Below are positions 5,380 to 35,159 of a DNA stretch of 35,159 bases, one piece after another. Position numbers and translations under genes: made by a program. How positions within the stretch are numbered: the stretch's first letter is position 1; each line of letters opens with the position of its first letter. Origin of the DNA: a virus; the IMG/VR virus record IMGVR_UViG_3300032223_000329, positions 1 to 35,159 of that record. The stretch is one strand, 5' to 3'. The notes beneath the pieces are model-generated. The model had not been told where the DNA came from and ran no database searches. It saw nothing but the letters and a program-made list of their open reading frames with translations.

Positions 5380-5385
5380 GATTTG

Positions 5386-5399
5386 TAAAGTAATCTTTA
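5386..5399. promoter_or_regulatory. Operator-like 14-mer before the small terminase gene
   Basis: TAAAGTAATCTTTA is identical to the 14-mers at 13106-13119 and 16049-16062, which sit inside promoter spacers. It is an inverted repeat (TAAAG/CTTTA) and fills the 17-base gap between a short gene and the small terminase start. No clear -35/-10 pair surrounds it here, so it may act on a promoter I cannot see, on translation, or as a roadblock. Confidence 0.55.
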
Positions 5400-5597
5400 T
5401 TCGTTTGCGGTTGTATTTTCGTTTGCTTCTGCCGCATCTACATCAGCCTGTGTAGTTGGGCTTTCTTCTACTGCATATACGCCATTAGTCAGTTCAGTTG
5501 GAACTCCTGGCTGGCTTACTAGGGCGTTAATATCCGCTTCCAATTCACTTGTTGTTTGTGGAATAGGGTATGGCAGATATACGTTTGGGGTAGTCAT
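5397..5597 (-). CDS. Hypothetical small acidic protein
   Basis: A 66-residue protein that I do not recognise. It starts MTTPNVYLPYPIPQTTSELE and becomes Ala/Glu/Thr-rich and acidic towards the end, with no membrane segment or Cys motif. Its start codon overlaps the stop of the upstream gene by one base (TAATG), which points to coupled translation. It is the last gene before the terminase pair in a run of short coupled genes. Confidence 0.65.
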   Translation of the reverse strand: MTTPNVYLPYPIPQTTSELEADINALVSQPGVPTELTNGVYAVEESPTTQADVDAAEANENTTANE

Positions 5598-6359: not shown

Positions 6360-6526
6360 TATTTTTTCTTTGCAGTTTTAGCTGATTGCTTAAATGCTTC
6401 GGCGGTTGGTGCGCCTTTACTTCCAGGTTTACGCATCTTTTCTACTGGCTTGCCTTCAGCCTTTTCGCGTTCAATCCGTGCCTGTTTTTTATGAATATTG
6501 GCGTATAGGCCAGGTTTAGTTGCCAT
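6359..6526 (-). CDS. Small conserved phage protein, 55 residues
   Basis: A short gene read directly from the sequence: MATKPGLYANIHKKQARIER at the start, KMRKPGSKGAPTAEAFKQSA near the end, then TAKKK and a stop. Short basic proteins with this GLYANIH...KMRKPG...APT pattern recur in phage genomes, from memory, with unknown role. The start at 6526 overlaps the GroES gene by 11 bases, and the stop overlaps the next start as TAATG. Confidence 0.75.
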   Translation of the reverse strand: MATKPGLYANIHKKQARIEREKAEGKPVEKMRKPGSKGAPTAEAFKQSAKTAKKK

Positions 6527-6842
6527 TTGCTTGTTCCCTGTCAGTTACAAAACATACATCTTGCCATGACATTATCAGATAACGTTCATTATTAGTAAAG
6601 TATTCTTGATATTTTAGGTATTCATCGCCGCCCATAGTGCCAAATCTGACATATTGGCCAACTTCTACTGGCATGGCTTCACGGCGGCCTTTAACCTTCT
6701 TGCCAGGGCCTACGGCTACTACCGTGCCCATGTTGTCCACCTCTTTGTTATCAACAATGATGATAGAACTTAAAATGCGTTTATCCGGGCGAACAACTAT
6801 TTTGTCCCCCAGCGGTTTTAATATAAAATCTGTATCAGCCAT
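6516..6842 (-). CDS. Phage co-chaperonin GroES (Cpn10)
   Basis: A 108-residue GroES-like cap protein that would partner host GroEL. It opens with the usual LKPLGDKIVVRPDKR strand. A mobile-loop region (about residues 22-38) carries a hydrophobic III/IIV patch in place of the usual GIVIP. The Cpn10 signature GTVVAVGPGKKVKG and EVGQYVRFG follow, then a C-terminal strand YLIMSWQDVCFV. Host GroES proteins are about 95 residues. Phage versions such as T4 gp31 adapt GroEL for coat folding, and P22-type coat folding depends on GroEL/ES, so a role in coat folding is a reasonable inference. GGAG lies upstream, and a terminator separates the gene from the one before it. Confidence 0.88.
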   Translation of the reverse strand: MADTDFILKPLGDKIVVRPDKRILSSIIIVDNKEVDNMGTVVAVGPGKKVKGRREAMPVEVGQYVRFGTMGGDEYLKYQEYFTNNERYLIMSWQDVCFVTDREQANGN

Positions 6843-9090: not shown

Positions 9091-9438
9091 TTAAATTACT
9101 TCAATCATTACATCAACGCCACCGCCTTTTCTTATTTGGCCACGTTGAATCATAAGTACGTCAATTTGACCGTCATTGTCATAAACGCCAGCTTCTTCTA
9201 AACCGTCTAAAACGGCTTTTAGGCGGTTATCTAAATCGGTGACTACCTTTGAACGTGGATATAAAAATAACGTCACTTCAAGCCGCCTAGTGCCAAATTT
9301 AGGTATTTCTTGGGCTACAACACATTCTGCAACTGCCGTTTTAAATTCCCGCCCAGCTTTGCTCAATACAGTATTGCCCCTGAAGTTGCGCCAGTAGGTG
9401 TTAACACTAGGTGGGTAGGGCAGTTTAATTATTGTCAT
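9091..9438 (-). CDS. rusA: RusA-like Holliday junction resolvase
   Basis: At 115 residues it is close to E. coli RusA (120). It starts with the typical LPYPPSVNTYWR. The catalytic segment TDLDNRLKAVLDGLEEAG supplies Asp68, Asp70 and a Lys, and YDNDGQID supplies a third Asp at about 89. RusA is a dimeric metal-dependent nuclease that cuts four-way junctions. In a phage it clears branched intermediates before packaging. The start at 9438 overlaps the upstream gene by 14 bases. Confidence 0.93.
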   Translation of the reverse strand: MTIIKLPYPPSVNTYWRNFRGNTVLSKAGREFKTAVAECVVAQEIPKFGTRRLEVTLFLYPRSKVVTDLDNRLKAVLDGLEEAGVYDNDGQIDVLMIQRGQIRKGGGVDVMIEVI

Positions 9439-10171
9439 TTAATTCAGTTTCAGCCATTTGGCAAAAAATACCACATTCAATTGCTTTTTCAGTTGGGTAA
9501 TCGCCAGCATCCATAGGCAGTTCTGTAAGCCAAATACGTTCACCTTTATGTTTAAGGATTTTAGCCCCTACTGTACGTTCTATTTGTGCCATACGGTCAA
9601 ATTGATCCGGAAAATCATTGCGTATTTTGTTCCAATAACCTAATCCACCTTTTACACATCCAATACAATTGTTGTTTTGATAACCCAATTTATACATTGC
9701 TGGCAACTCTATACCAGCCCTATCAATAATTGCCAAACAATCAGATTTGCCAAGACCTTTATCTATAAGAATTGACCATAAATTTACATCATTATTTGCA
9801 TCTATAAACCTATCTACACGGTCTTGTTCTTCAGCCGTGTAACCAAATATTTGTCGGTCATTTGGCAATTCAAACGATTTACGAATGTCTTTTTTAAGGT
9901 GTACGGCGCATGGGGCACCCCCAATTCCTACAATGTATTTACGTTTTTCAAATACTTTATAAATACTGCCGTTATATTTGTCATTCTGAATAACTTTTAT
10001 TGGTTGTCCAAACCATTTTTCACAATCATGCATAAATCGTAAATTGTCAGGGTGTTCTTCTGCAACATGGCAATAAACCACTTCAACTGGTGTTTTGCTT
10101 TCAGCAATAGCCAGCTTGGTTGCTACGGCACTTGCCGCACCGCATGAAAACCAAGATATTGTTCTAGTCAT
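9425..10171 (-). CDS. PAPS reductase / PP-loop ATPase-like protein
   Basis: A 248-residue protein of the adenine nucleotide alpha-hydrolase (PP-loop) superfamily. The N-terminal SWFSCGAASAVATKLA carries the ATP pyrophosphate-binding loop, EVVYCHVAEEHPDN follows the usual second strand, and NNCIGCVKGG near residue 170 is a CxxC that could hold a metal or act in sulfur chemistry. Phages carry many such proteins annotated as phosphoadenosine phosphosulfate reductase, but true sulfate reduction is unlikely here. Its neighbours are nucleases and a methyltransferase, so nucleotide or DNA/RNA modification is an alternative. The exact reaction cannot be told from sequence. Confidence 0.75.
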   Translation of the reverse strand: MTRTISWFSCGAASAVATKLAIAESKTPVEVVYCHVAEEHPDNLRFMHDCEKWFGQPIKVIQNDKYNGSIYKVFEKRKYIVGIGGAPCAVHLKKDIRKSFELPNDRQIFGYTAEEQDRVDRFIDANNDVNLWSILIDKGLGKSDCLAIIDRAGIELPAMYKLGYQNNNCIGCVKGGLGYWNKIRNDFPDQFDRMAQIERTVGAKILKHKGERIWLTELPMDAGDYPTEKAIECGIFCQMAETELNDNN

Positions 10172-10445
10172 TTAGCAGTTCTTCAACTTTTTGGTGCAAA
10201 TCTTCTTCACTCCATCCCCAGTATTTTTGGAACCCACGGTGTCCGAGGGAATGTACGCTGGTATTTCCAAGACGATGGTGCCACATACACAAGGGTATAG
10301 TTTTTGCGGTTTTACGAGGTTGGCCGTGTCTGCGTATATGGTGGATTTCCACGGGTGTATCGGTGTCAGTAATTCCATTTTGTTGGCACAATATGCACCC
10401 CAATCTTGCCAATTTTGCATAATGTTTAGATTCTTCTTTTGTCAT
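10164..10445 (-). CDS. Ref-like HNH nuclease
   Basis: A 93-residue protein with CILCQQ near the start, VEIHHIRRHGQPRK in the middle and IPLCMWHHRLGNTSVHSLGH with FQKYWGWSEEDL after it. Paired Cys, a His-His and a later Cys...HH form a zinc/HNH-type site, and the whole pattern resembles the P1 Ref family of RecA-dependent nucleases (recombination enhancement). In phages these small Ref-like proteins sit in recombination gene clusters, as here beside RusA. It overlaps both neighbours by 8 and 20 bases. Nuclease activity is inferred from motifs. Confidence 0.78.
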   Translation of the reverse strand: MTKEESKHYAKLARLGCILCQQNGITDTDTPVEIHHIRRHGQPRKTAKTIPLCMWHHRLGNTSVHSLGHRGFQKYWGWSEEDLHQKVEELLND

Positions 10446-10989
10446 ATTTGCTAATACTTGCGAATAAATCGTTCCAGTTATATATTTGGTGTATTAAATC
10501 ATCATTTTCAATCTCATAAGTATCTGCTTTTAATTCAAAAGACGTATTGTTTGTTCTTTCACGAATTGTGCCTTTTTCATAAAATTTTGCAAAAAACAAA
10601 AAACTTACTTTAGGAAGCCAGCCGCATATAGTTAATTTGCTATTGCTAGTGTTTAAGCTGGAAAACACATAACCGTCCACGTCAAATTTTGTTTGCGATG
10701 CAATAAGATTATTGACATATTTAAGGGTTGGCGTAACCGTGCGGCCCATAGTTTTTATATCAATTTTTTTACCAGCAATTACAAAATCGACACCCCCATC
10801 ATGGGCGGTTGATGGCTTCATAAATGGTTCATTTAAAGCCATTGCCATCATATTTTGGCCTATAACGCCCACCATCTGTTGTTCTTTATTGCCGTTAGTA
10901 TTGTCCGGCCTATGACCTAAATTGTTGTTTTCAACAAAATGTTCACTAATTTCAATAACAGATTTTGGTACTACAACAGTAAACGCCAT
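10426..10989 (-). CDS. PD-(D/E)XK-type nuclease-like protein
   Basis: A 187-residue protein with a short restriction-endonuclease-fold signature: HDGGVDFVIAGKKIDIKT at about residues 63-80, giving Asp68 and Asp77-x-Lys79, with a Gln/Glu-bearing helix before it (EQQMVGVIGQNMMAMAL). The rest has no motif that I recognise. Family proteins cut DNA with metal. In this cluster it might process branched DNA or degrade host DNA. It could also be an inactive relative, because the order and spacing of the first acidic residue are uncertain. Confidence 0.6.
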   Translation of the reverse strand: MAFTVVVPKSVIEISEHFVENNNLGHRPDNTNGNKEQQMVGVIGQNMMAMALNEPFMKPSTAHDGGVDFVIAGKKIDIKTMGRTVTPTLKYVNNLIASQTKFDVDGYVFSSLNTSNSKLTICGWLPKVSFLFFAKFYEKGTIRERTNNTSFELKADTYEIENDDLIHQIYNWNDLFASISKYDKRRI

Positions 10990-11162
10990 TAATCAATATA
11001 AGCATCACGTAACCCTTTAGAAATATCTTCTAATTGTTGGGCTACATCCACAATATCTATGGATATTTCATGGGCTTGTTGAAAATGACCTTTTACAATC
11101 GTTTCATGAAAATCTTTCATTAATTTGTGCAATGCAAGGTATGGTGTTGAAAAATCCATCAT
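10989..11162 (-). CDS. Small helical protein, 57 residues
   Basis: Read directly from the sequence: MMDFSTPYLALHKLMKDFHE at the start and QQLEDISKGLRDAYID at the end, then a stop. It is acidic and probably two helices. It overlaps the upstream stop (ATGATG; either ATG could start) and the downstream start as TAATG. Function unknown. Confidence 0.65.
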   Translation of the reverse strand: MMDFSTPYLALHKLMKDFHETIVKGHFQQAHEISIDIVDVAQQLEDISKGLRDAYID

Positions 11163-11308
11163 TTTGTTGATCCCCCGTAAACCTGGCTTTCCAGGTGTTT
11201 AATTTGACTGCGTAATTGTTCGTTTTCTTGTTTAAGGCGGTTGTGTTCTATTAAATGCAATAAAAAAGGTGCCCATTCTTCAAAATCTTCAGTTATTTTG
11301 TCAGCCAT
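11159..11308 (-). CDS. Small coiled-coil protein, 49 residues
   Basis: MADKITEDFEEWAPFLLHLI begins the protein, and LKQENEQLRSQIKHLESQV forms a good leucine-zipper-like coiled coil. The frame is open further upstream to an ATG at 11341, but I prefer the ATG at 11308 because the upstream part coincides with another coupled gene at 11293-11388. It overlaps the next gene by four bases. Function unknown. Confidence 0.6.
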   Translation of the reverse strand: MADKITEDFEEWAPFLLHLIEHNRLKQENEQLRSQIKHLESQVYGGSTK

Positions 11309-11388
11309 ATATTCAACAGTACGTAGATAATGAAACACCATACCAATGCGCCGGTAAGCATAAAAATACTAAAAATAATTTCAATCAT
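11293..11388 (-). CDS. Very short membrane protein, 31 residues
   Basis: MIEIIFSIFMLTGALVWCFI followed by IYVLLNIWLTK is almost entirely one membrane segment with a positively charged end. The ATG at 11388 overlaps the stop of the previous gene in the classic ATGA way, and its 3' end overlaps the next start by 16 bases, which argues that it is translated. No function can be assigned. Confidence 0.5.
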   Translation of the reverse strand: MIEIIFSIFMLTGALVWCFIIYVLLNIWLTK

Positions 11389-11732
11389 TTTGTTAGCCTT
11401 TCAAGGTTACGATTACTAGCTTCTTGGGTACGCCACGCTTCAAATCGTAATTTAGCCGCTTCTAGCCGGTATTTCCACATTTCTGTTTTGTATGTTGCCG
11501 CGCCAATGGCTTTGCAAAGGTCTTGGTATTCTTGGCTGGCATACGCTTCACGTTCTTGGGCACCCAAGCTTTGTTCATTAGACTTTTTCATCATGATTGA
11601 ACGTAATGAGTGACGGTAAGCTTCCAACTCTGCTAACTCACCTTTGGCCTTGGCAAATTCCGGCGCAAATTCATAAAGATAATCTACGCAATCATTGGGA
11701 TCAACAACTCTTGAATCAGCTTTCATAGCCAT
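11385..11732 (-). CDS. Conserved phage protein with YLYEFAPEFAKAKGE motif
   Basis: A 115-residue, charged and probably all-helical protein. The segment DYLYEFAPEFAKAKGELAEL and the C-terminal LEAAKLRFEAWRTQEASNR are a pattern I associate with a short conserved protein found beside phage replication genes. Its function is not known to me. Two ATGs are possible: 11732, or 11726 with a standard ATGA overlap with the upstream stop. Confidence 0.68.
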   Translation of the reverse strand: MAMKADSRVVDPNDCVDYLYEFAPEFAKAKGELAELEAYRHSLRSIMMKKSNEQSLGAQEREAYASQEYQDLCKAIGAATYKTEMWKYRLEAAKLRFEAWRTQEASNRNLERLTK

Positions 11733-11956
11733 TTACCAGGTTCGCCCCGGTTTCCTTTTTTCCATTGGTCGTAAAAATCCCCAGCAAGGCGTTCACGGCG
11801 TTTATCAAAATTAGGGTTAGCAAAATAACCCCTAAAACCGGTAAGCCCAAGCTTGGTACGGTAAATAAGCAATTGTCGGATTTCACATTCATACCGATGC
11901 CTTTCCAATTTCTTGGCTGATTCGTTGTCGGTACTGTCCCATAGATTCGCCAGCAT
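11723..11956 (-). CDS. Hypothetical basic protein beside the DnaT-like gene
   Basis: About 77 residues if it starts at the ATG at 11956 (MLANLWDSTDNESAKKLERH). The recognisable part, KLERHRYECEIRQLLIYRTK onward and then GYFANPNFDKRRERLAGDFY, is Arg/Lys-rich and ends GKWL. The start is uncertain: the frame overlaps the upstream gene heavily (68 bases), no good ribosome site is seen, and a TTG further downstream (TTGGAAAGG) could be the real start. Function unknown; position suggests a replication role. Confidence 0.6.
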   Translation of the reverse strand: MLANLWDSTDNESAKKLERHRYECEIRQLLIYRTKLGLTGFRGYFANPNFDKRRERLAGDFYDQWKKGNRGEPGKWL

Positions 11957-12263
11957 AAGCGTTAAGCCCCAATTCTTTGCCTTTAGCAAGTGTTAGTTCA
12001 TCTGAACTATACCAAGGTAATGAAGGCCGCTTTAGTTCTTTTGGTGTCATGTCCAATTCATCTTCCCAGCGGCCTTGGTTAAGCCACGTGCTGGCATGGG
12101 GTATGAAATCCATTTCCGTACCTTTTAGCTTCCAGTACGCCACGTGTTGTTCAATGGCTTCTACGGCATCGGATTGTTCTTGTTTAGTAAGCCGATTAAA
12201 TGCCGCTTGTGCCGCACGTTTAGCTATTTTACGTGGGTAATGTTTCCAAAATTGTTCAAACAT
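11889..12263 (-). CDS. DnaT-like / phage replication protein domain
   Basis: A 124-residue protein beginning MFEQFWKHYPRKIAKRAAQA, with FIPHASTWLNQGRWEDEL at about 55-72. This FWxxYPRK...TWLNxxRWxDE pattern is the domain found at the end of many phage replication initiators and in DnaT-like primosome proteins, where it binds single-stranded DNA and helps load helicase. Here it stands alone, with no helicase or polymerase in the window, so host replication proteins would be recruited (inference). The ATG at 12263 is preferred over an upstream GTG at 12272. It overlaps the methyltransferase gene by eight bases. Confidence 0.75.
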   Translation of the reverse strand: MFEQFWKHYPRKIAKRAAQAAFNRLTKQEQSDAVEAIEQHVAYWKLKGTEMDFIPHASTWLNQGRWEDELDMTPKELKRPSLPWYSSDELTLAKGKELGLNAYAGESMGQYRQRISQEIGKASV

Positions 12264-12831
12264 TATTGGCACCCCATTGGCTGGCTATTGCATCAGCTAT
12301 ACCTTGATAAGTTGTGCTTCTTAATTTCCAACGTTCAGGGCTAGGCGGCAATTTATGTAAACGTTGTTCACGTCCTTCAACAATATTTGTTGGTTGCAAT
12401 TCCGGCAAACCTTTTAACCATAGACAAGTAGCTTTACTTTCACCGTGACCAAACATCCAAGGTTGAATTACTTGATTTTGCCGCCTACCAATAATTTCTA
12501 CTGCGTACTTGTGCATTATTGGGTTTTCAATTGCAAATTTAGGAATGTTGCAATCCAGCAATTTTTTAAAAAAATTAGCACCATCCCTCATTTTGTCCCA
12601 ACGGCCTTCTTGTTTATAAAGCCATGAAACGCCTGAATTACATAAATAAGTGCATGGTGGATGGGCTATCATCAAATCCCAGCCATCATTAATTATGTCA
12701 AAAATATCGCCTTGATAATGCGGTCCTTCGGCATCAGAAGGCAATAAATCGCAACTCATAGCATCATGGCCCAATTTAATAAAAGCATCACGTACACGCC
12801 CTGAATATTCACAAGCAACTAAAACTTTCAT
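12256..12831 (-). CDS. DNA cytosine methyltransferase-like protein
   Basis: A 191-residue protein with a shortened C5-methyltransferase layout. VACEYSGRVRDAFIKLGHDA resembles the SAM-binding motif I, WDLMIAHPPCTYLCNSG contains the catalytic PPC of motif IV, and FAIENPIMHKY resembles the ENP motif VI. The target-recognition part is short (GHGESKATCLWLKGLPEL). Full C5 enzymes are usually over 300 residues, so this belongs to the short phage group whose activity is uncertain. It may protect phage DNA from host restriction. Confidence 0.75.
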   Translation of the reverse strand: MKVLVACEYSGRVRDAFIKLGHDAMSCDLLPSDAEGPHYQGDIFDIINDGWDLMIAHPPCTYLCNSGVSWLYKQEGRWDKMRDGANFFKKLLDCNIPKFAIENPIMHKYAVEIIGRRQNQVIQPWMFGHGESKATCLWLKGLPELQPTNIVEGREQRLHKLPPSPERWKLRSTTYQGIADAIASQWGANNV

Positions 12832-13056
12832 TTATTTTGCCTTTAATGATTCATATACATCATTAAAAAACCAGCTTTTACCACTATGGTAAGTGCCTAA
12901 ATGGCGATTGTATTTATCGTAATAAAGATGAATTGGCGCAGTAGATTCGCCATATTGTTCGTAATGTTTGCAATAACCTAAAGCTTCTTTTCCGTTTGCA
13001 TGGAATAAAAAGTTTTCAAAGTCTTTTTTCTTAAGATTTACATGAGTTACGTTCAT
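12832..13056 (-). CDS. Hypothetical protein, first gene of the leftward early operon
   Basis: A 74-residue protein starting MNVTHVNLKKKDFENFLFHA, rich in Tyr, His and Lys (GYCKHYEQYG, IHLYYDKYNRHLG), with no family that I recognise. An AAAGGA ribosome site lies upstream. It is the first gene after the promoter at 13099-13127 and its leader hairpin, so it should be made early. Its stop codon is directly next to the methyltransferase ATG. Confidence 0.68.
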   Translation of the reverse strand: MNVTHVNLKKKDFENFLFHANGKEALGYCKHYEQYGESTAPIHLYYDKYNRHLGTYHSGKSWFFNDVYESLKAK

Positions 13057-13076
13057 TTTGTTTTCCTTTAATTTTC

Positions 13077-13092
13077 ACCGCACCGTTGCAGT
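13077..13092 (-). promoter_or_regulatory. Predicted 5'-terminal mRNA hairpin (copy 1)
   Basis: On the minus strand ACTGCA, loop ACGG, TGCGGT form a six-pair stem with one T-G wobble. It starts six bases after the -10 hexamer, so it would be the very start of the transcript. It matches the hairpins at 13831-13846 and 16077-16092. Confidence 0.65.
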
Positions 13093-13098
13093 ACCTCT

Positions 13099-13127
13099 AA
13101 TTTACTAAAGTAATCTTTACTTGTAAA
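13099..13127 (-). promoter_or_regulatory. Leftward early promoter with embedded operator
   Basis: TTTACA (13127-13122), a 17-base spacer and TAAATT (13104-13099). The spacer is AG, then the 14-base near-palindrome TAAAGATTACTTTA, then G. The promoter at 16041-16069 has the same -35, the same -10 and the same 14-mer on the opposite strand. A repressor bound there would block polymerase directly. Confidence 0.7.
13106..13119. promoter_or_regulatory. Operator-like 14-mer in the leftward promoter
   Basis: TAAAGTAATCTTTA on the plus strand is an inverted repeat TAAAG/CTTTA around four bases. It is identical to the sites at 5386-5399 and 16049-16062. It lies between the -35 and -10 elements. Confidence 0.65.
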
Positions 13128-13186
13128 GCATTATTTTCTAGTGATTTACCCTAATATCTAATAACTGTTGTATTTATGTTGAATTG

Positions 13187-13371
13187 CTGATTGGTGGACG
13201 AACCTAGCCCACCTGGTTCGCCTTCAACTGTTTGCTTTATTGGAGCCACAGAACCCGACAGTCGTTCAAGGAGTAGGCACTATCTTCGCCACCTACTTCG
13301 CGCTATTGCATCCTTTGATCCCCCAGTAACGCTTCTATCCTGACCGCTGGTGGTGGTGAATCCCCAATCAG
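13187..13371. other. Non-coding stretch with a closing stem and a possible pseudoknot
   Basis: This is part of the 480-base gene-free region 13057-13536. CTGATTGG (13187-13194) is perfectly complementary to CCAATCAG (13364-13371), closing a 185-base domain. Inside, CGAACC (13199-13204) pairs with GGTTCG (13215-13220). GGTGG (13193-13197) can pair with CCACC (13209-13213), interleaved with the first stem as in an H-type pseudoknot, though it competes with the last bases of the closing stem. AGTAGG and CCTACT give another stem. By eye it is richer in G and C than its surroundings. I see no convincing gene. Confidence 0.4.
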
Positions 13372-13375
13372 AACG

Positions 13376-13516
13376 ATTGCGAATAAGAAACAAAAAACCC
13401 CTTAAAAGGCAGATTGTATGGAAACTAAACTGATTAAATGGTTCGAGGTCATTTAATTAATTCAGAACAATCCACCCATTAAGGGGTTCTAACTTTCGCG
13501 GTTTCCATGTCGCAAT
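13376..13516 (-). ncRNA. Candidate structured small RNA, leftward
   Basis: Five nested complementary pairs form one long interrupted rod: 13376-13382 with 13510-13516 (7 pairs), 13387-13391 with 13501-13505 (5), 13396-13405 with 13479-13488 (10), 13412-13417 with 13467-13472 (6), and 13430-13440 with 13450-13465 (11, with a bulge). A -10 TATAGT lies six bases upstream of the first paired base on the minus strand, and a run of six T follows the 10-pair stem in that direction. No known RNA family is recognised. Confidence 0.5.
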
Positions 13517-13522
13517 AAGTTA

Positions 13523-13551
13523 ACTATACCATAAAACTAAACTGTGCTTAA
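13523..13551 (-). promoter_or_regulatory. Possible promoter for the small RNA
   Basis: TATAGT (13528-13523) preceded at 17 bases by TTAAGC (13551-13546), a poor -35. A start at 13516 would fall exactly on the first base of the long rod structure. It overlaps the end of the repressor gene. Confidence 0.35.
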
Positions 13552-13767
13552 CTCCGGCCAAATTATTTGCCAAGTATCGGGAAAAAGGTCTTGCCTAGAC
13601 ACCAGGCCGTGGCTTTCCCGTTCAATGGTTGCCGCGATAAGCATTAAGGGCGCGGCTGGTATTGCGTTGTTGTTGCGCCATTGACACACCGCTTGGACCG
13701 TTACGCCACATAGCTTTGCTACCTTTGCTGGCCGGCCTAATAGGTCAATCATTTGTGCATCTGTCAT
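13537..13767 (-). CDS. Cro/YdaS-like transcriptional repressor
   Basis: A 76-residue helix-turn-helix protein. KVAKLCGVTVQAVCQWRNN is the DNA-binding helix pair, and SRQDLFPDTWQIIWPEL at the C-terminus is the hallmark ending of YdaS-type Cro-superfamily proteins. These dimers bind operators in phage control regions. It is transcribed away from the rightward SSB/exonuclease operon; the two divergent promoters overlap, and two operator-like sites lie in them, which fits autoregulation. No CI-type partner, integrase or antirepressor is seen. An AAGGA ribosome site precedes the ATG. Confidence 0.85.
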   Translation of the reverse strand: MTDAQMIDLLGRPAKVAKLCGVTVQAVCQWRNNNAIPAAPLMLIAATIERESHGLVSRQDLFPDTWQIIWPELSTV

Positions 13768-13784
13768 TTATTTTCCTTTTTTGC

Positions 13785-13798
13785 TAAATATTACTTTA
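13785..13798. promoter_or_regulatory. Degenerate operator-like site 1 in the divergent promoter region
   Basis: TAAATATTACTTTA matches 13 of 14 positions of TAAAGATTACTTTA. It overlaps the -35 of the rightward promoter. The decamer TTACTTTACA within and just after it recurs 21 bases further on, two helical turns away. Confidence 0.5.
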
Positions 13799-13823
13799 CA
13801 ACAACTAAATTTTACTTTACATT
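13795..13823 (+). promoter_or_regulatory. Rightward promoter of the SSB/exonuclease operon
   Basis: TTTACA (13795-13800), 17 bases, TACATT (13818-13823). Seven bases later the hairpin at 13831-13846 begins, the same geometry as at 16041-16092. Confidence 0.6.
13806..13819. promoter_or_regulatory. Degenerate operator-like site 2 in the divergent promoter region
   Basis: TAAATTTTACTTTA matches 12 of 14 positions of TAAAGATTACTTTA. It covers the end of the rightward spacer and the -10 of the leftward repressor promoter, so binding could shut both. Confidence 0.45.
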
Positions 13824-13837
13824 TGATAGTACGGCAA
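13809..13837 (-). promoter_or_regulatory. Leftward promoter of the repressor gene
   Basis: On the minus strand TTGCCG (13837-13832), 17 bases, TAAAAT (13814-13809). It is divergent from and overlaps the rightward promoter. Its -10 lies in an operator-like site. Confidence 0.5.
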
Positions 13838-13846
13838 TGGTGCCGT
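13831..13846 (+). promoter_or_regulatory. Predicted 5'-terminal mRNA hairpin (copy 2)
   Basis: ACGGCA, loop ATGG, TGCCGT: six perfect pairs starting seven bases after the -10 element, followed by GATAAATAAGGAG, which carries the ribosome site of the first gene. Compared with copy 3 the third pair is G-C instead of C-G, a compensatory change. Confidence 0.7.
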
Positions 13847-13864
13847 GATAAATAAGGAGTTGAC

Positions 13865-14056
13865 ATGGACGAAATGGCAGAAGTAATGAATGAATTTGAA
13901 CAACGCCTAGAAATAGCGTTAGAGAATATTGAACATGACTATGCAAGCCCTGACGATATTGCAGTAATTCGTGCGGCTTGTGGCAAACCAAAGCCAACAA
14001 AAAATCAGGTGTTAACAGAACTATTTAATGAATTTGGAACAATTTTTGGAAAGTGA
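13865..14056 (+). CDS. Hypothetical small acidic protein
   Basis: A 63-residue, helical, acidic protein beginning MDEMAEVMNEFEQRLEIALE, with PDDIAVIRAACGKPKPTKNQ after it. It is not recognised. It has the strongest ribosome site in the region (AGGAG, six bases) and is the first gene of the rightward operon, four bases before the SSB-like gene. It may be an early regulator; this is inferred from position only. Confidence 0.7.
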   Translation: MDEMAEVMNEFEQRLEIALENIEHDYASPDDIAVIRAACGKPKPTKNQVLTELFNEFGTIFGK

Positions 14057-14060
14057 AAAA

Positions 14061-14699
14061 ATGATAATTGCAAAACAAACCAGTTCCGGTAGTGACTTTA
14101 AACTACCACCAGCCGGTAGCTTCTTGGCTAGGCTATACCGCATTATTGACATTGGCACCCAAACAACTGAATGGATGGGTAAAAAGAAGATGCAACGCAA
14201 AATCATTGCCATGTTTGAATTACATGGTGAAGATAACGATGGCCAGCCATTGCAAACCGTGGAAGGCAAACCACTAATCGTATCTAAACGCTACACGCTA
14301 TCCTTGGACGAAAAAGCCACGCTACGTAAAGATTTAGAAGCTTGGCGCGGCAAAGCATTTACCCAAGAAGAATTAGATGGTTTTAACTTGGAAGTATTGC
14401 TAGGAAAATGTTGCATGGTATCTATTACTCATTCAACATATGATGGTAAAGAGTACGCAAACATTGCCGGTATCAGCCAGGTGCCAGCCGCATTGAAAAA
14501 ACTTGGTGAACCAGTTGGCGTAAATGAATTAATGATATTTACCCTTGATCCGTTTGATCAAGATAAATTTAGTAAGTTGTCAGAAGGTTTACAAGGTGTT
14601 ATTAAAAAGTCTGCGGAATACCGCAATACGTTTGAACCTAACGCGCCAGTAGTCAGTTCTGCACCGTCAGAATTGATTGATGACGATATTCCTTTTTAG
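14061..14699 (+). CDS. Phage single-stranded DNA-binding protein (SSB-like)
   Basis: A 212-residue protein. The body (KLPPAGSFLARLYRIIDIGT, then QRKIIAMFELHG and later YDGKEYANIAGISQVP) fits an OB-fold-like phage SSB family, and the end PSELIDDDIPF is the classic acidic SSB tip that recruits partner proteins. SSBs coat single strands during replication and recombination. The exonuclease two genes downstream is the natural partner. An upstream ATG at 14028 lies inside the previous gene. The ATG at 14061 with GGAAAG upstream is preferred. Confidence 0.8.
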   Translation: MIIAKQTSSGSDFKLPPAGSFLARLYRIIDIGTQTTEWMGKKKMQRKIIAMFELHGEDNDGQPLQTVEGKPLIVSKRYTLSLDEKATLRKDLEAWRGKAFTQEELDGFNLEVLLGKCCMVSITHSTYDGKEYANIAGISQVPAALKKLGEPVGVNELMIFTLDPFDQDKFSKLSEGLQGVIKKSAEYRNTFEPNAPVVSSAPSELIDDDIPF

Positions 14700-14707
14700 G
14701 GGGCAAT

Positions 14708-14911
14708 ATGAAGCCAATGGTTAAGTTTATGGTTTGTGATCACTACACCCTGAAAACAGTTCAGGAAATTGGGCACGATGAAGAAACTGAAATCATTGGT
14801 TTCAGCTATGAAGCTTTGTCTAGGTTTACAAGGGCGTTAGTTACTGAAGCCGCTTGCCTGGTCAAAGACCCAAAAGATAGAAAATTAATCTTACAAACAT
14901 TAGGTGAATAA
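14708..14911 (+). CDS. Hypothetical small protein
   Basis: A 67-residue protein beginning MKPMVKFMVCDHYTLKTVQE, then EETEIIGFSYEALSRFTRAL; not recognised. A GGGGG ribosome site precedes it, and it directly abuts the next gene. It lies between the SSB-like and exonuclease genes, so a DNA-metabolism accessory role is possible but not shown by the sequence. Confidence 0.65.
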   Translation: MKPMVKFMVCDHYTLKTVQEIGHDEETEIIGFSYEALSRFTRALVTEAACLVKDPKDRKLILQTLGE

Positions 14912-15136
14912 ATGAAATGTATTGAATGTAAATGGTTTGCTGGTCAAACTAATGATACGTATGGCGTATGTAAACGTTATCCACAAACGGCCAACAAAAG
15001 CCAAAATGATTGGTGCGGCGAATACACTAACAAAGTTGTAATAGTTACACCAGCCCAAGAAGAACCAATTCAAAAATTTGAAATTAAATGGGAAGAATCA
15101 ACAACGCCTAAACGTGGAAGAAAACCAAAAGCATGA
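14912..15136 (+). CDS. Small four-cysteine protein, likely zinc-binding
   Basis: A 74-residue protein with CIECKWF at the N-terminus, GVCKRYP at about 25 and DWCGEY at about 40. The C-x2-C...C...C spacing is a zinc-ribbon-like site that I recognise from short phage proteins of unknown function. The C-terminal TTPKRGRKPKA is basic and AT-hook-like, suggesting contact with nucleic acid. The stop overlaps the exonuclease start as ATGA. Confidence 0.7.
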   Translation: MKCIECKWFAGQTNDTYGVCKRYPQTANKSQNDWCGEYTNKVVIVTPAQEEPIQKFEIKWEESTTPKRGRKPKA

Positions 15137-15921
15137 TAATTAAAGAACGTCAATCGGAATCAGGGCATTGGTATGATCGTGAAGGAAATCCAGCATATAG
15201 TGTTACTGCCAAGAACGGCCAGCAACGAGCAACAACGTTACGGGATGCAAGATCACTTAATCTTTGCCCAAGTGTTTCAGGAATTATTGGAGTTGCGGCA
15301 AAACCAGGCCTTGATACATGGAAACAACAACAAGTCCTATTAGCCGCGCTAACCCTTCCTAGGGAAACTGGTGAACCTGAACAAGCTTGGCTTGAACGGG
15401 TAATGATGGACGCAAAACAAACAGGGCGCATAGCCGCTGACCGTGGCACTTCTATTCATGCAACTATTCAAGCATTTTTTGAAGGTGCATTAATACCTGA
15501 AGCCATGCCAATTTGCCGCCCCGTTGAAGAAGCCATTAAAACGCATTTTGGGGAACTTTTGCTATTACCGGAACTATCCTTTGCCCATGTCCTTGGGTAC
15601 GGCGGTAAGGCCGATTTAATAGCTAAATCAAGGCATGATTTTGATGGTGTTTGTATTGATATAAAAACCAAAGAAACAGAAGATATTGCCAAAGCCGATG
15701 TTTACCCGGAGCATGGGATGCAATTAGCGGCGTATCGCCAAGGTTTTAATATGCCTAAAGCCCGATGCGCGAACGTATTTGTTGGCTACAAAATGGTTAG
15801 TGGGCAGATTGTGTTTACTGGCGTTAAAGTTGTAGAGCATGAAGCGGCCGATTTAGACCGTTATTGGTTGATGTTTACCAAGTTGTTAGAGTTTTGGCAG
15901 TTAAAAAACAATCACAAGTAA
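15133..15921 (+). CDS. RecB/Cas4-like PD-(D/E)XK exonuclease
   Basis: A 262-residue nuclease. RGTSIHATIQAFFEG holds the conserved His (about 109), GYGGKADLIAK gives Asp161, CIDIKTKE gives Asp176-x-Lys178, and QLAAYRQGF is the Q-x3-Y motif IV. This set defines the RecB/YqaJ/Cas4 exonuclease group that resects double-stranded ends. With the SSB-like protein it forms a recombination module, but no recognisable annealase (Red-beta, Erf or RecT) is seen, so partners may be host-encoded or unrecognised. Confidence 0.85.
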   Translation: MIIKERQSESGHWYDREGNPAYSVTAKNGQQRATTLRDARSLNLCPSVSGIIGVAAKPGLDTWKQQQVLLAALTLPRETGEPEQAWLERVMMDAKQTGRIAADRGTSIHATIQAFFEGALIPEAMPICRPVEEAIKTHFGELLLLPELSFAHVLGYGGKADLIAKSRHDFDGVCIDIKTKETEDIAKADVYPEHGMQLAAYRQGFNMPKARCANVFVGYKMVSGQIVFTGVKVVEHEAADLDRYWLMFTKLLEFWQLKNNHK

Positions 15922-15934
15922 CAATAGGGCGGTT

Positions 15935-15978
15935 AACTGGACGTTGAAGGATGCAACAATTTGGGGTTTTTTCCAGTT
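15935..15978 (+). other. Gene-free gap after the exonuclease, possible weak terminator
   Basis: The gap 15922-16112 holds AACTGGA (15935-15941) complementary to TCCAGTT (15972-15978), an inner GTTG/CAAC pair, and a TTGGGGTTTTTT run before the distal arm. This could end the upstream transcript, but the geometry is not standard. The right part of the gap holds the promoter, operator and hairpin listed separately. Confidence 0.3.
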
Positions 15979-16040
15979 TCCACCCAATTAGTAGCAGTTG
16001 CCAAATTCACGCCTTTCGTTGTTTAAATGCAAAATACCGC

Positions 16041-16069
16041 TTTACAAGTAAAGTAATCTTTAGTAAATT
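16041..16069 (+). promoter_or_regulatory. Rightward promoter with embedded operator
   Basis: TTTACA (16041-16046), a 17-base spacer, TAAATT (16064-16069). The spacer is AG, the 14-mer TAAAGTAATCTTTA, then G, mirroring the leftward promoter at 13099-13127. It drives the lipoprotein-like gene operon. Confidence 0.7.
16049..16062. promoter_or_regulatory. Operator-like 14-mer in the 16 kb promoter
   Basis: TAAAGTAATCTTTA, identical to 5386-5399 and 13106-13119. It fills the promoter spacer. Confidence 0.65.
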
Positions 16070-16076
16070 AACCAAT

Positions 16077-16092
16077 ACCGCAATGTTGCGGT
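16077..16092 (+). promoter_or_regulatory. Predicted 5'-terminal mRNA hairpin (copy 3)
   Basis: ACCGCA, loop ATGT, TGCGGT: six perfect pairs starting seven bases after the -10, followed by GATAAATAAAGGA with the ribosome site. It shows a compensatory change against copy 2. Confidence 0.7.
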
Positions 16093-16112
16093 GATAAATA
16101 AAGGAATTAATC

Positions 16113-16571
16113 ATGGATCGTGAAGCAAAACAAGAACAAGCCTATTGGGCCGCACAAGCAAAATTTGAGAACCAACAACGTATGATTGATAAGGGTTGGG
16201 GCGATAAAGAAGATTACAAAAAACTACTGGCTTTTGAAGCCAAACGTGCCCGTAATCAGCGTTGGAAAAACAAAGCTAATGAAATTATTACTGGCATTTT
16301 GATGGTTGGGCTAGTCATTGGATTGTTGTTTTTAACTGGTTGTTCTAGCACTTCAGGCACTACTGGCACAGTATATAGCCAAGCACCATCCCAGCAATTA
16401 ATATTAGACAAACAAGTAGCCGCGCTTACTAGAAATGAAGTTATTAATGGCGTTACAGAGTGCGAGGGTGCCGGCCTTCGCGCCCATGTAATTACCACTA
16501 AACGTCAAATTAATGGCTTTACTGCGGATATTCCAGTAGAAGTAACTTGTATGCCTAAATTTAAATATTAA
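16113..16571 (+). CDS. Membrane protein with an internal lipoprotein-type motif
   Basis: A 152-residue protein. The first ~55 residues are charged and helical (AYWAAQAKFENQQRMIDKGW, later KRARNQRWKNKANE). A membrane segment IITGILMVGLVIGLLFL then runs straight into LTGC (Cys77) followed by SSTSGTTG, a lipobox. The rest is polar, with two more Cys. A normal lipoprotein signal would start near an internal Met64, so either it is made from an internal start or it has an unusual cytoplasmic extension. Early expression suggests an envelope-acting host-takeover or superinfection-exclusion role (inference). Confidence 0.65.
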   Translation: MDREAKQEQAYWAAQAKFENQQRMIDKGWGDKEDYKKLLAFEAKRARNQRWKNKANEIITGILMVGLVIGLLFLTGCSSTSGTTGTVYSQAPSQQLILDKQVAALTRNEVINGVTECEGAGLRAHVITTKRQINGFTADIPVEVTCMPKFKY

Positions 16572-16580
16572 GGGGATAAC

Positions 16581-16784
16581 ATGAACGAACATATTTGGAC
16601 TGCCAGCGGTACCGATATAACCATTAGATGGCGTATTGCTGGTTGGGTACCGCCTTCAGAACTTCAAGAATATCGGGATAAATGGAAGTATTATCAAAAT
16701 TTGCCATTGCGTAATTTAGACGATGCGGCAAAAGAACAATATGAACAAGTATTGCGTAAAGCTAAAGTATTGAGGGTTAAATGA
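16581..16784 (+). CDS. Hypothetical small protein
   Basis: A 67-residue protein: MNEHIWTASGTDITIRWRIA, then GWVPPSELQEYRDKWKYYQN. It is Trp/Tyr-rich and charged, with no family known to me, though similar GWVPPSE...YREKW segments occur in other phage small proteins, from memory. A GGGG ribosome site precedes it, and it overlaps the next gene by four bases. Confidence 0.65.
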   Translation: MNEHIWTASGTDITIRWRIAGWVPPSELQEYRDKWKYYQNLPLRNLDDAAKEQYEQVLRKAKVLRVK

Positions 16785-16969
16785 CTAAAGAAAAGAAAAC
16801 AGAACGTAAATGGATTGAAAAGGATAAAAACATCTGTGACGATTGTTTTATCCAAAGATTCCCTGATTTTTCCTATGAAGGATCAACTGCGCTAACAATA
16901 TGGCGTATGGCCTGGGATTTATCCAGGGAAACTAAAGAAAACGAAAAACCGCTAATACAAACTATTTAG
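16781..16969 (+). CDS. Hypothetical small protein
   Basis: A 62-residue protein with a basic start (MTKEKKTERKWIEKDKN) and a CDDCF pair, then YEGSTALTIWRMAWDLSRET. Not recognised. It is the last gene of the short rightward operon. Its last eight bases overlap the end of the convergent gene, and a terminator follows. Confidence 0.6.
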   Translation: MTKEKKTERKWIEKDKNICDDCFIQRFPDFSYEGSTALTIWRMAWDLSRETKENEKPLIQTI

Positions 16970-34290: not shown

Positions 34291-35159
34291 TTACGATGCA
34301 ATACGGCAAGCCAATTCAGGGTACAAAGGTGCCCAGCCATACAGAACGTCCAAACGAGTTGGGATGGAATCGTTGTTGATGGTGTATTGACGAACCACAC
34401 GGATTGACAAACCAAGTTCTTTATCAGAAGCACGGCCAGCGAAATGAACGCCTTCAGGCAATTCCAAGTCAGCACAAGCTAAAGTAAACGCATTGCGGTG
34501 CATCAAAATGTTCTGTGGTGAAGTTACGCCAGTATTGTTAAATGGGGTAACAGTCTGTGAACCACTTGATGTAACGCTTACGTTTTGGAACTGACCAGCA
34601 GTAATAACGGCTGGAACAACGGTAACAGTAGCAGTACCACCGGAACCGATTGCAGTTGTAGATTGAACTACAAAGTTACGCAATTTGCCATAAGACTGAC
34701 GGTTTTGTGGGTTAACCGCAAATACGCCAGCAATAGTAAATGTATCACCTTGGTTCAATGTAGCGGCCGCAGAAGTAGCACCGATAGTGATGTTGCTTGA
34801 ATAAGCCCAACCACTTGTCAAGAAGCCAGTTGCAGTTGTTACGTTGCAAGATAAAGTAGCAGTTGAATAAGAACCGAAAGTTTGTGACACAACGTTTTGG
34901 TCCATATACCAGTTCATACCACCGGAATCGCGCCCCATCAGGCCTTTTGTATATTGGCTAGAAATGGCTTCGGTAGGAACAAACAAACCTTTTAAGCTAT
35001 CAACGATTGTTGAAGATGTAAATGGCTCGATTGTGCATGAACGGCGGCCATCACGTGGTGCGCCTTCAGAATCAAGGTAAGCGGCCGCAGTTAGGTAAGT
35101 AATCAAACCAGTTGGTGCAGTACCAGCAGTACCAACGATGTTTGCGGTGTTGTTTTTAG
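34291..35159 (-). CDS. Major capsid (coat) protein, C-terminal part running off the right edge
   Basis: The frame is open to the right edge and ends at 34291. Past the overlap it continues GRDSGGMNWYMDQNVVSQTF, then a Thr/Ser/Gly-rich middle with SSGSQTVTPFNNTGV, and FTLACADLELPEGVHFAGRA, TRLDVLYGWAPLYPELACRI, which are typical of the C-terminal P-domain of P22-like coats. With bases 1-603 it forms one 412-residue protein (34927-35159 duplicates 1-233). No in-frame stop or shift is present at the join. A strong terminator follows. Confidence 0.9.
   Translation of the reverse strand, partial: KNNTANIVGTAGTAPTGLITYLTAAAYLDSEGAPRDGRRSCTIEPFTSSTIVDSLKGLFVPTEAISSQYTKGLMGRDSGGMNWYMDQNVVSQTFGSYSTATLSCNVTTATGFLTSGWAYSSNITIGATSAAATLNQGDTFTIAGVFAVNPQNRQSYGKLRNFVVQSTTAIGSGGTATVTVVPAVITAGQFQNVSVTSSGSQTVTPFNNTGVTSPQNILMHRNAFTLACADLELPEGVHFAGRASDKELGLSIRVVRQYTINNDSIPTRLDVLYGWAPLYPELACRIAS
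34927..35159. repeat. Right copy of imperfect terminal direct repeat (contig overlap)
   Basis: Matches 1-233 with 14 mismatches and no gaps. Base 34926 joins base 1 in frame within the coat gene, giving a circular unit of 34926 bases. Confidence 0.9.

Follow-up and report, generated by a model that had tools for sequence, protein, structure and literature searches.

Background

In P22 a pair of repressors, C2 and Cro, acts on three shared operators per promoter, and the phage also has CII-like and antitermination genes. The P22 repressor reads the central bases of its operator by indirect readout (PMC3317979). For YdaS, from prophage CP-933P of E. coli O157:H7, binding to operators that cover two divergent promoters has been shown, and the protein has been argued to be a Cro analogue and not a toxin (PMC8630535). 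In the Acinetobacter phage Ab1656-2 a homologue annotated as Cro stands opposite a LexA/CI gene. Here we describe a related system in a stretch of 35,159 nucleotides from an uncultivated virus (IMG/VR record IMGVR_UViG_3300032223_000329, positions 1-35,159), which we call the window. The palindrome ACTAAAG-N4-CTTTAGT lies within the 17 base pair (bp) spacers of three promoters, the leftward P_L and the rightward P_R and P_R2, and the gene for a protein of 76 amino acids (aa) from the P22 Cro/YdaS family lies among them. We put a rough probability of 0.85 on the reading that this one repressor switches the operons behind all three promoters, its binding being predicted from the sequence.

Three promoters share one palindrome

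A preliminary description of this DNA had reported two oppositely directed promoters with exactly the same operator in their spacers. Both promoters stand (P_L, TTTACAAGTAAAGATTACTTTAGTAAATT; P_R2, TTTACAAGTAAAGTAATCTTTAGTAAATT; for coordinates and strands see Table 1) and they agree in 25 of 29 bases. The operator is not exactly the same, as the central 4 bp are ATTA in P_L and TAAT in P_R2. An exact TTTACA-N17-TAAATT occurs at P_L and P_R2 and nowhere else in the window, compared to a mean of 0.07 and a maximum of 1 in 300 dinucleotide shuffles. The unit of 25 fixed bases, TTTACAAGTAAAG-N4-CTTTAGTAAATT, is present in two copies, one per strand, and was found in none of 300 dinucleotide shuffles.

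The same description had given weight to the operator being flipped between the two promoters. Because the two sequences differ solely in those central 4 bp, the flip and the differing centre are one and the same fact. For the 37 relatives having both the P_L and the P_R2 site we counted 8 flipped pairs where 5.9 were expected (P = 0.20), and more than 12 different tetranucleotides occupy the centre. On these counts we reject a special arrangement and take the window's flip for one outcome out of many.

When the search was based on the arms instead of the 14-mer, two more copies (O_R2 and O_R1) appeared at a distance of 21 bp from each other, in the gap that separates the YdaS-like gene from the rightward operon starting at 13865. 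Control of two promoters had been proposed; both belong to the regulon, the number does not hold, and we now count three promoters with four sites. The order along the window is P_L, the leftward repressor gene, the operator pair, P_R directed rightward and then P_R2 behind the exonuclease gene.

The 76-residue repressor

The 76-aa protein matched two Pfam families above their cut-offs, YdaS_toxin (PF15943) with 34.1 bits (cut-off 30) and P22_Cro (PF14549) with 31.1 bits (cut-off 30.2), and it falls into phrog_35, which is named transcriptional repressor. Its AlphaFold2 model (predicted local distance difference test score 89.8) has six helices in the all-helical Cro/YdaS fold with a helix-turn-helix. 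The closest solved folds were YdaS of CP-933P (the best), Xfaso 1 Cro, N15 Cro and P22 Cro, with Foldseek probabilities of 0.90-1.00, modest template modelling scores of about 0.44-0.57 and no E-value below 0.001. YdaS of CP-933P was also the best sequence match in the PDB, and a sequence profile built from the two clades described below reached P22 Cro and P22 C2 as well. Each genome has one YdaS-family match. The family screens reported no YdaT-like family for the neighbouring open reading frames (ORFs), though YdaT itself was not searched for. The protein belongs to the P22 Cro/YdaS family, and operator binding is predicted; the Pfam name "YdaS toxin" should be read as denoting a Cro-like regulator (PMC8630535).

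The match to P22 extends to the DNA sites. We worked from ANTNAAG-N4-CTTNANT, which we take to be the P22-type operator consensus, and on the P22 record the annotated OL/OR stretches gave four strict matches. The record annotates the operators as a group, and the numbers given here to single P22 operators (OR2, OL1, OR3) are presumably the customary ones. OR2 (ACTAAAG-ATTC-CTTTAGT), which lies within the P22 early right promoter, matched the arms of the window's clade (clade 1 below) at 14 of 14 positions. The OL1 and OR3 arms equal those of the second clade exactly. The operators of P_L and P_R2 satisfy all fixed positions of the consensus, and the pair O_R1/O_R2 deviates at one inner position.

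Conservation of the sites in relatives

Scanning viral contigs for the 76-aa protein returned 80 relatives and a collection search for the promoter-operator unit returned 45 stretches. The preliminary description had suggested looking for this unit in related phages, and the palindrome was indeed found at matching places in about 80 viral contigs. Counted from the repressor start the sites lie at about -55 and about -34, at +480 to +1250 for P_L and at about -2100 to -3150 for P_R2, which holds for almost all relatives that include the relevant stretch. Among the 64 distinct sites from P_L and P_R2, all have the right arm CTTTAGT and the left arm is nearly invariant. The arms carry about 2 bits per position, and the centre and flanks are variable. 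Clade-1 centres are about 97% A/T and otherwise free; those of clade 2 include CCAG and CTGG.

An extra operator unit near P_L was seen in some relatives, at +697 and +1246 (L041) and at +698 and +1311 (L045) from the repressor start, as if the cassette were portable.

Operator and repressor change together

Relatives of the exonuclease at 55-57% identity fall into a second clade, in which the orthologous repressor is 47-53% identical. The recognition region of the repressor, at residues 24-30 of the 76-aa protein, reads VQAVCQW in clade 1 and VPAVSMW in clade 2, and the clade-2 phages have TTAAG-N4-CTTAA at the corresponding promoter positions. At the 80 loci with VQAVCQW we counted 112 copies of TAAAG-N4-CTTTA and 0 of TTAAG-N4-CTTAA; the 94 loci with VPAVSMW gave 0 and 167, respectively. 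Operator type and recognition region thus show no crossover in 174 loci. In the 9 near-full-length clade-2 records the perfect clade-2 palindrome occurs just 2-3 times per genome, and 4 of these 9, those examined as loci, have sites at the P_L, P_R and P_R2 positions. The recognition region and the half-site have changed together within a single group of uncultivated phages, and the genes next to the sites are the same ones in both clades. Such a clade pair is a natural case of one recognition-region change accompanied by one operator change and should be useful for working out the rules of protein-DNA recognition in the Cro family.

Two other explanations of the sites bear on this result. A host regulator, instead of the phage protein, might bind them, as the palindrome resembles generic A/T-rich helix-turn-helix sites. 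We consider this very improbable in view of the perfect segregation of operator and repressor between the clades, the pair of sites at the repressor's own divergent promoter and, for a member of the P22 Cro family, the exact agreement with a P22 operator. The three units could also be duplicated promoter segments in which the palindrome is inherited baggage with no regulatory meaning. They do have one layout (promoter, operator, hairpin, ribosome site), and some relatives, L041 among them, contain extra units. Neutral copies would decay independently. The arms, however, hold about 2 bits per position next to a variable centre and variable flanks, and in clade 2 all the operators have changed together; duplication as the full explanation is hardly credible. 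The proposal that the YdaS-like protein is the shared repressor gains support from the site at its own divergent promoter, from the co-change of the clades and from the P22 operator match.

Lifestyle and the proposed circuit

In the proposed circuit a repressor dimer would read facing ACTAAAG half-sites across the non-conserved, A/T-rich 4-bp centre. Bound in the spacer between the -35 and -10 boxes it would exclude RNA polymerase at P_L, P_R and P_R2. The pair at P_R, whose second site lies over the -35 box beside the repressor start, would also reach the leader of the repressor gene, and the bound repressor would probably limit its own synthesis.

What such a repressor is for depends on the lifestyle of the phage. 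Neither tyrosine (PF00589) nor serine (PF00239) recombinases, S24 (CI-type) repressors or ParA-type ATPases (PF13614) were found in 15 near-full-length genomes (0/15 each, all controls positive), and 84,980 genomes of bacteria and archaea, scanned at the sensitivity of a pattern search, gave no relatives of the repressor. In the pattern-based scan we observed no close prophages of the group in bacterial genomes, and plasmid-like maintenance was rejected on the lack of PF13614 in the 15 genomes. With no integrase or serine recombinase in those 15 genomes, the group does not class with the integrating temperate phages. From these absences the likeliest role is a stand-alone, Cro-like shut-off of the early genes in a lytic phage that has no detectable integrase or CI-type repressor.

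The main rival, so placed because the gene occupies the cI position, accepts the sites as operators and takes the protein for a maintenance repressor (immunity or carrier state) which silences the early operons in a non-integrated latent state. The gene is indeed directed leftward between P_L and P_R like cI or c2 and is transcribed away from P_R, and the operator is common to all early promoters. Against it speak the missing integrase, ParA and S24 domains, the lack of bacterial and archaeal relatives and the protein itself, which consists of a small Cro-type domain only. We regard this latent-state role as unlikely, though well worth considering beside a Cro-like early shut-off.

Several points weigh against a single repressor with an early shut-off role. 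The pattern-based prophage scan of bacterial genomes reaches just fairly close relatives, and a CI-type repressor might have escaped notice if it belongs to an unknown family. The covariation between the clades is in essence one evolutionary change, as the loci are related and not independent. For the repressor gene itself we found no clear promoter, and lambda and P22 have more operators per promoter whereas P_L and P_R2 have one each.

A hairpin at the start of each transcript

Where each transcript presumably starts, about 10 bases downstream of the operator, we found a hairpin of the form UAC-NNNN-loop-NNNN-GUG with a 7-bp stem. Over 23 distinct versions 98.8% of the pairs are kept, and there are 23 two-sided changes compared to 6.0 in shuffles. 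No shuffle reached the covariation score (0.51), and slid controls gave 0.12 or less. Clade 2 has the hairpin as well, and so, it seems, does MW202674, whose portal is 70% identical. Across the genome the bare pattern lacks specificity, with seven distinct places in the window vs 4.1 raw matches in shuffles, and it is the position and the covariation that make the hairpin significant. We rejected the explanation that it is a second sequence-specific DNA operator, since the stem sequence varies freely while the pairing stays; the element therefore acts, if at all, as a structure. Candidate functions are protection of the 5' end or an antitermination site. Tentatively, each early operon could be headed by a modular cassette of promoter, P22-type spacer operator, 5' hairpin and ribosome site under a single Cro-type repressor without CI, with the hairpin as a functional RNA that fixes the fate of the transcript by 5'-end protection or processive antitermination.

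Further matches and neighbouring features

The TAAAG-N4-CTTTA site at the terminase genes (Table 1), which has a variable centre, keeps its position in all 7 of the 7 relatives from clade 1 whose homologue is full-length. The gene that it abuts is in the terminase small-subunit position, judged by location. None of the 9 clade-2 genomes has a TTAAG-N4-CTTAA counterpart near the terminase gene, and for this reason we leave the site doubtful despite its conservation in clade 1. It overlaps a stop codon and a ribosome-binding region, and its conservation may have other causes. Exact copies of TAAAG-N4-CTTTA also occur at 1217 and 3215. The latter, in the portal gene, was rejected as an operator as the coding sequence (Lys-Glu-Asn-Phe) accounts for its conserved spacing in relatives.

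Within the 400 bp that separate the repressor gene from P_L and look empty lies the Rfam RNA RF02932, Betaproteobacteria-1 (13253-13374, minus strand; 85.4 bits, gathering threshold 49.4), which was seen in 10 of 15 relatives scanned with its strand sense unchanged. The leftward operon includes a PAPS-reductase-like gene (phrog_424) at 9425-10171 on the minus strand. One of the genes upstream of the terminase, at 6516-6842 on the minus strand, encodes a GroES-like co-chaperonin (45.1 bits to Pfam Cpn10). The record has a direct repeat of 233 nucleotides at its two ends, 94% identical between 1-233 and 34927-35159, which suggests a complete genome of about 34.9 kilobases.

Table 1. Position, strand and basis of the regulatory elements and operons in the window.
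Feature	Position	Strand	Sequence or content	Basis or remark
Doubtful fifth site	5385..5401	+	GTAAAGTAATCTTTATT	Abuts gene 5379-5062, just upstream of terminase large subunit gene
P_L operon head	9091..13056	-	74-aa ORF; DNA methyltransferase-like, replication-initiation-like, HNH-type, PAPS-reductase-like and RusA-like genes	
Hairpin of P_L unit	13076..13093	-	UACUGCA-ACGG-UGCGGUG	Position and covariation
P_L, leftward early promoter	13099..13127	-	TTTACA-17-TAAATT	Conserved in relatives
O_L, operator	13104..13121	-	AGTAAAG-ATTA-CTTTAGT	Within P_L spacer
Repressor gene	13537..13767	-	76 aa, P22 Cro/YdaS family	Pfam, phrog_35, AlphaFold2 fold
O_R2, operator	13783..13800	+	GCTAAAT-ATTA-CTTTACA	Covers P_R -35 box; just upstream of repressor start codon
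P_R, rightward early promoter	13795..13823	+	TTTACA-17-TACATT	Divergent from repressor gene; kept in about 80 relatives
O_R1, operator	13804..13821	+	ACTAAAT-TTTA-CTTTACA	Within P_R spacer
Hairpin of P_R unit	13830..13847	+	UACGGCA-AUGG-UGCCGUG	Position and covariation
P_R operon	13865..15921	+	63-aa ORF, phrog_862-family protein, two small ORFs, PD-(D/E)XK exonuclease	
P_R2, second rightward promoter	16041..16069	+	TTTACA-17-TAAATT	Conserved in relatives
Operator of P_R2	16047..16064	+	AGTAAAG-TAAT-CTTTAGT	Within P_R2 spacer
Hairpin of P_R2 unit	16076..16093	+	UACCGCA-AUGU-UGCGGUG	Position and covariation
P_R2 operon	16113..16969	+	152-aa, 67-aa and 62-aa ORFs	

Comparison with known systems

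The analysis yields a testable regulatory circuit, with operators known to the base, for an uncultivated and common freshwater podovirus group, and it suggests that a Cro-type repressor can run a phage alone. The lambdoid lysis-lysogeny switch of CI plus Cro, two opposed repressors on common operators, is not what we encountered here. With P22 the group has in common the Cro family, the operator arms, the 4-bp centre and a P22-like portal protein. Unlike P22, it has one Cro-type gene in the c2 position, a third promoter (P_R2) and only 1-2 sites at each promoter. YdaS of CP-933P (PDB 8c7k, 8co2) resembles the protein in its C-terminal IWPE stretch and resembles the locus in having sites over two divergent promoters; its half-site consensus GTTTAGTAA (PMC8630535) has TTTAGTAA in common with the operator flank here. 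CP-933P has four inverted repeats, PaaR2 as the CI analogue and ydaS first in the P_R operon, whereas no CI partner is visible here. In temperate phages the YdaS/Cro gene is part of the rightward operon and faces a gene for CI or LexA, whereas the gene described here is directed leftward. A P22-type Cro-operator system is known in kind, and the arrangement seen here, with a single repressor and three promoters, is unusual.

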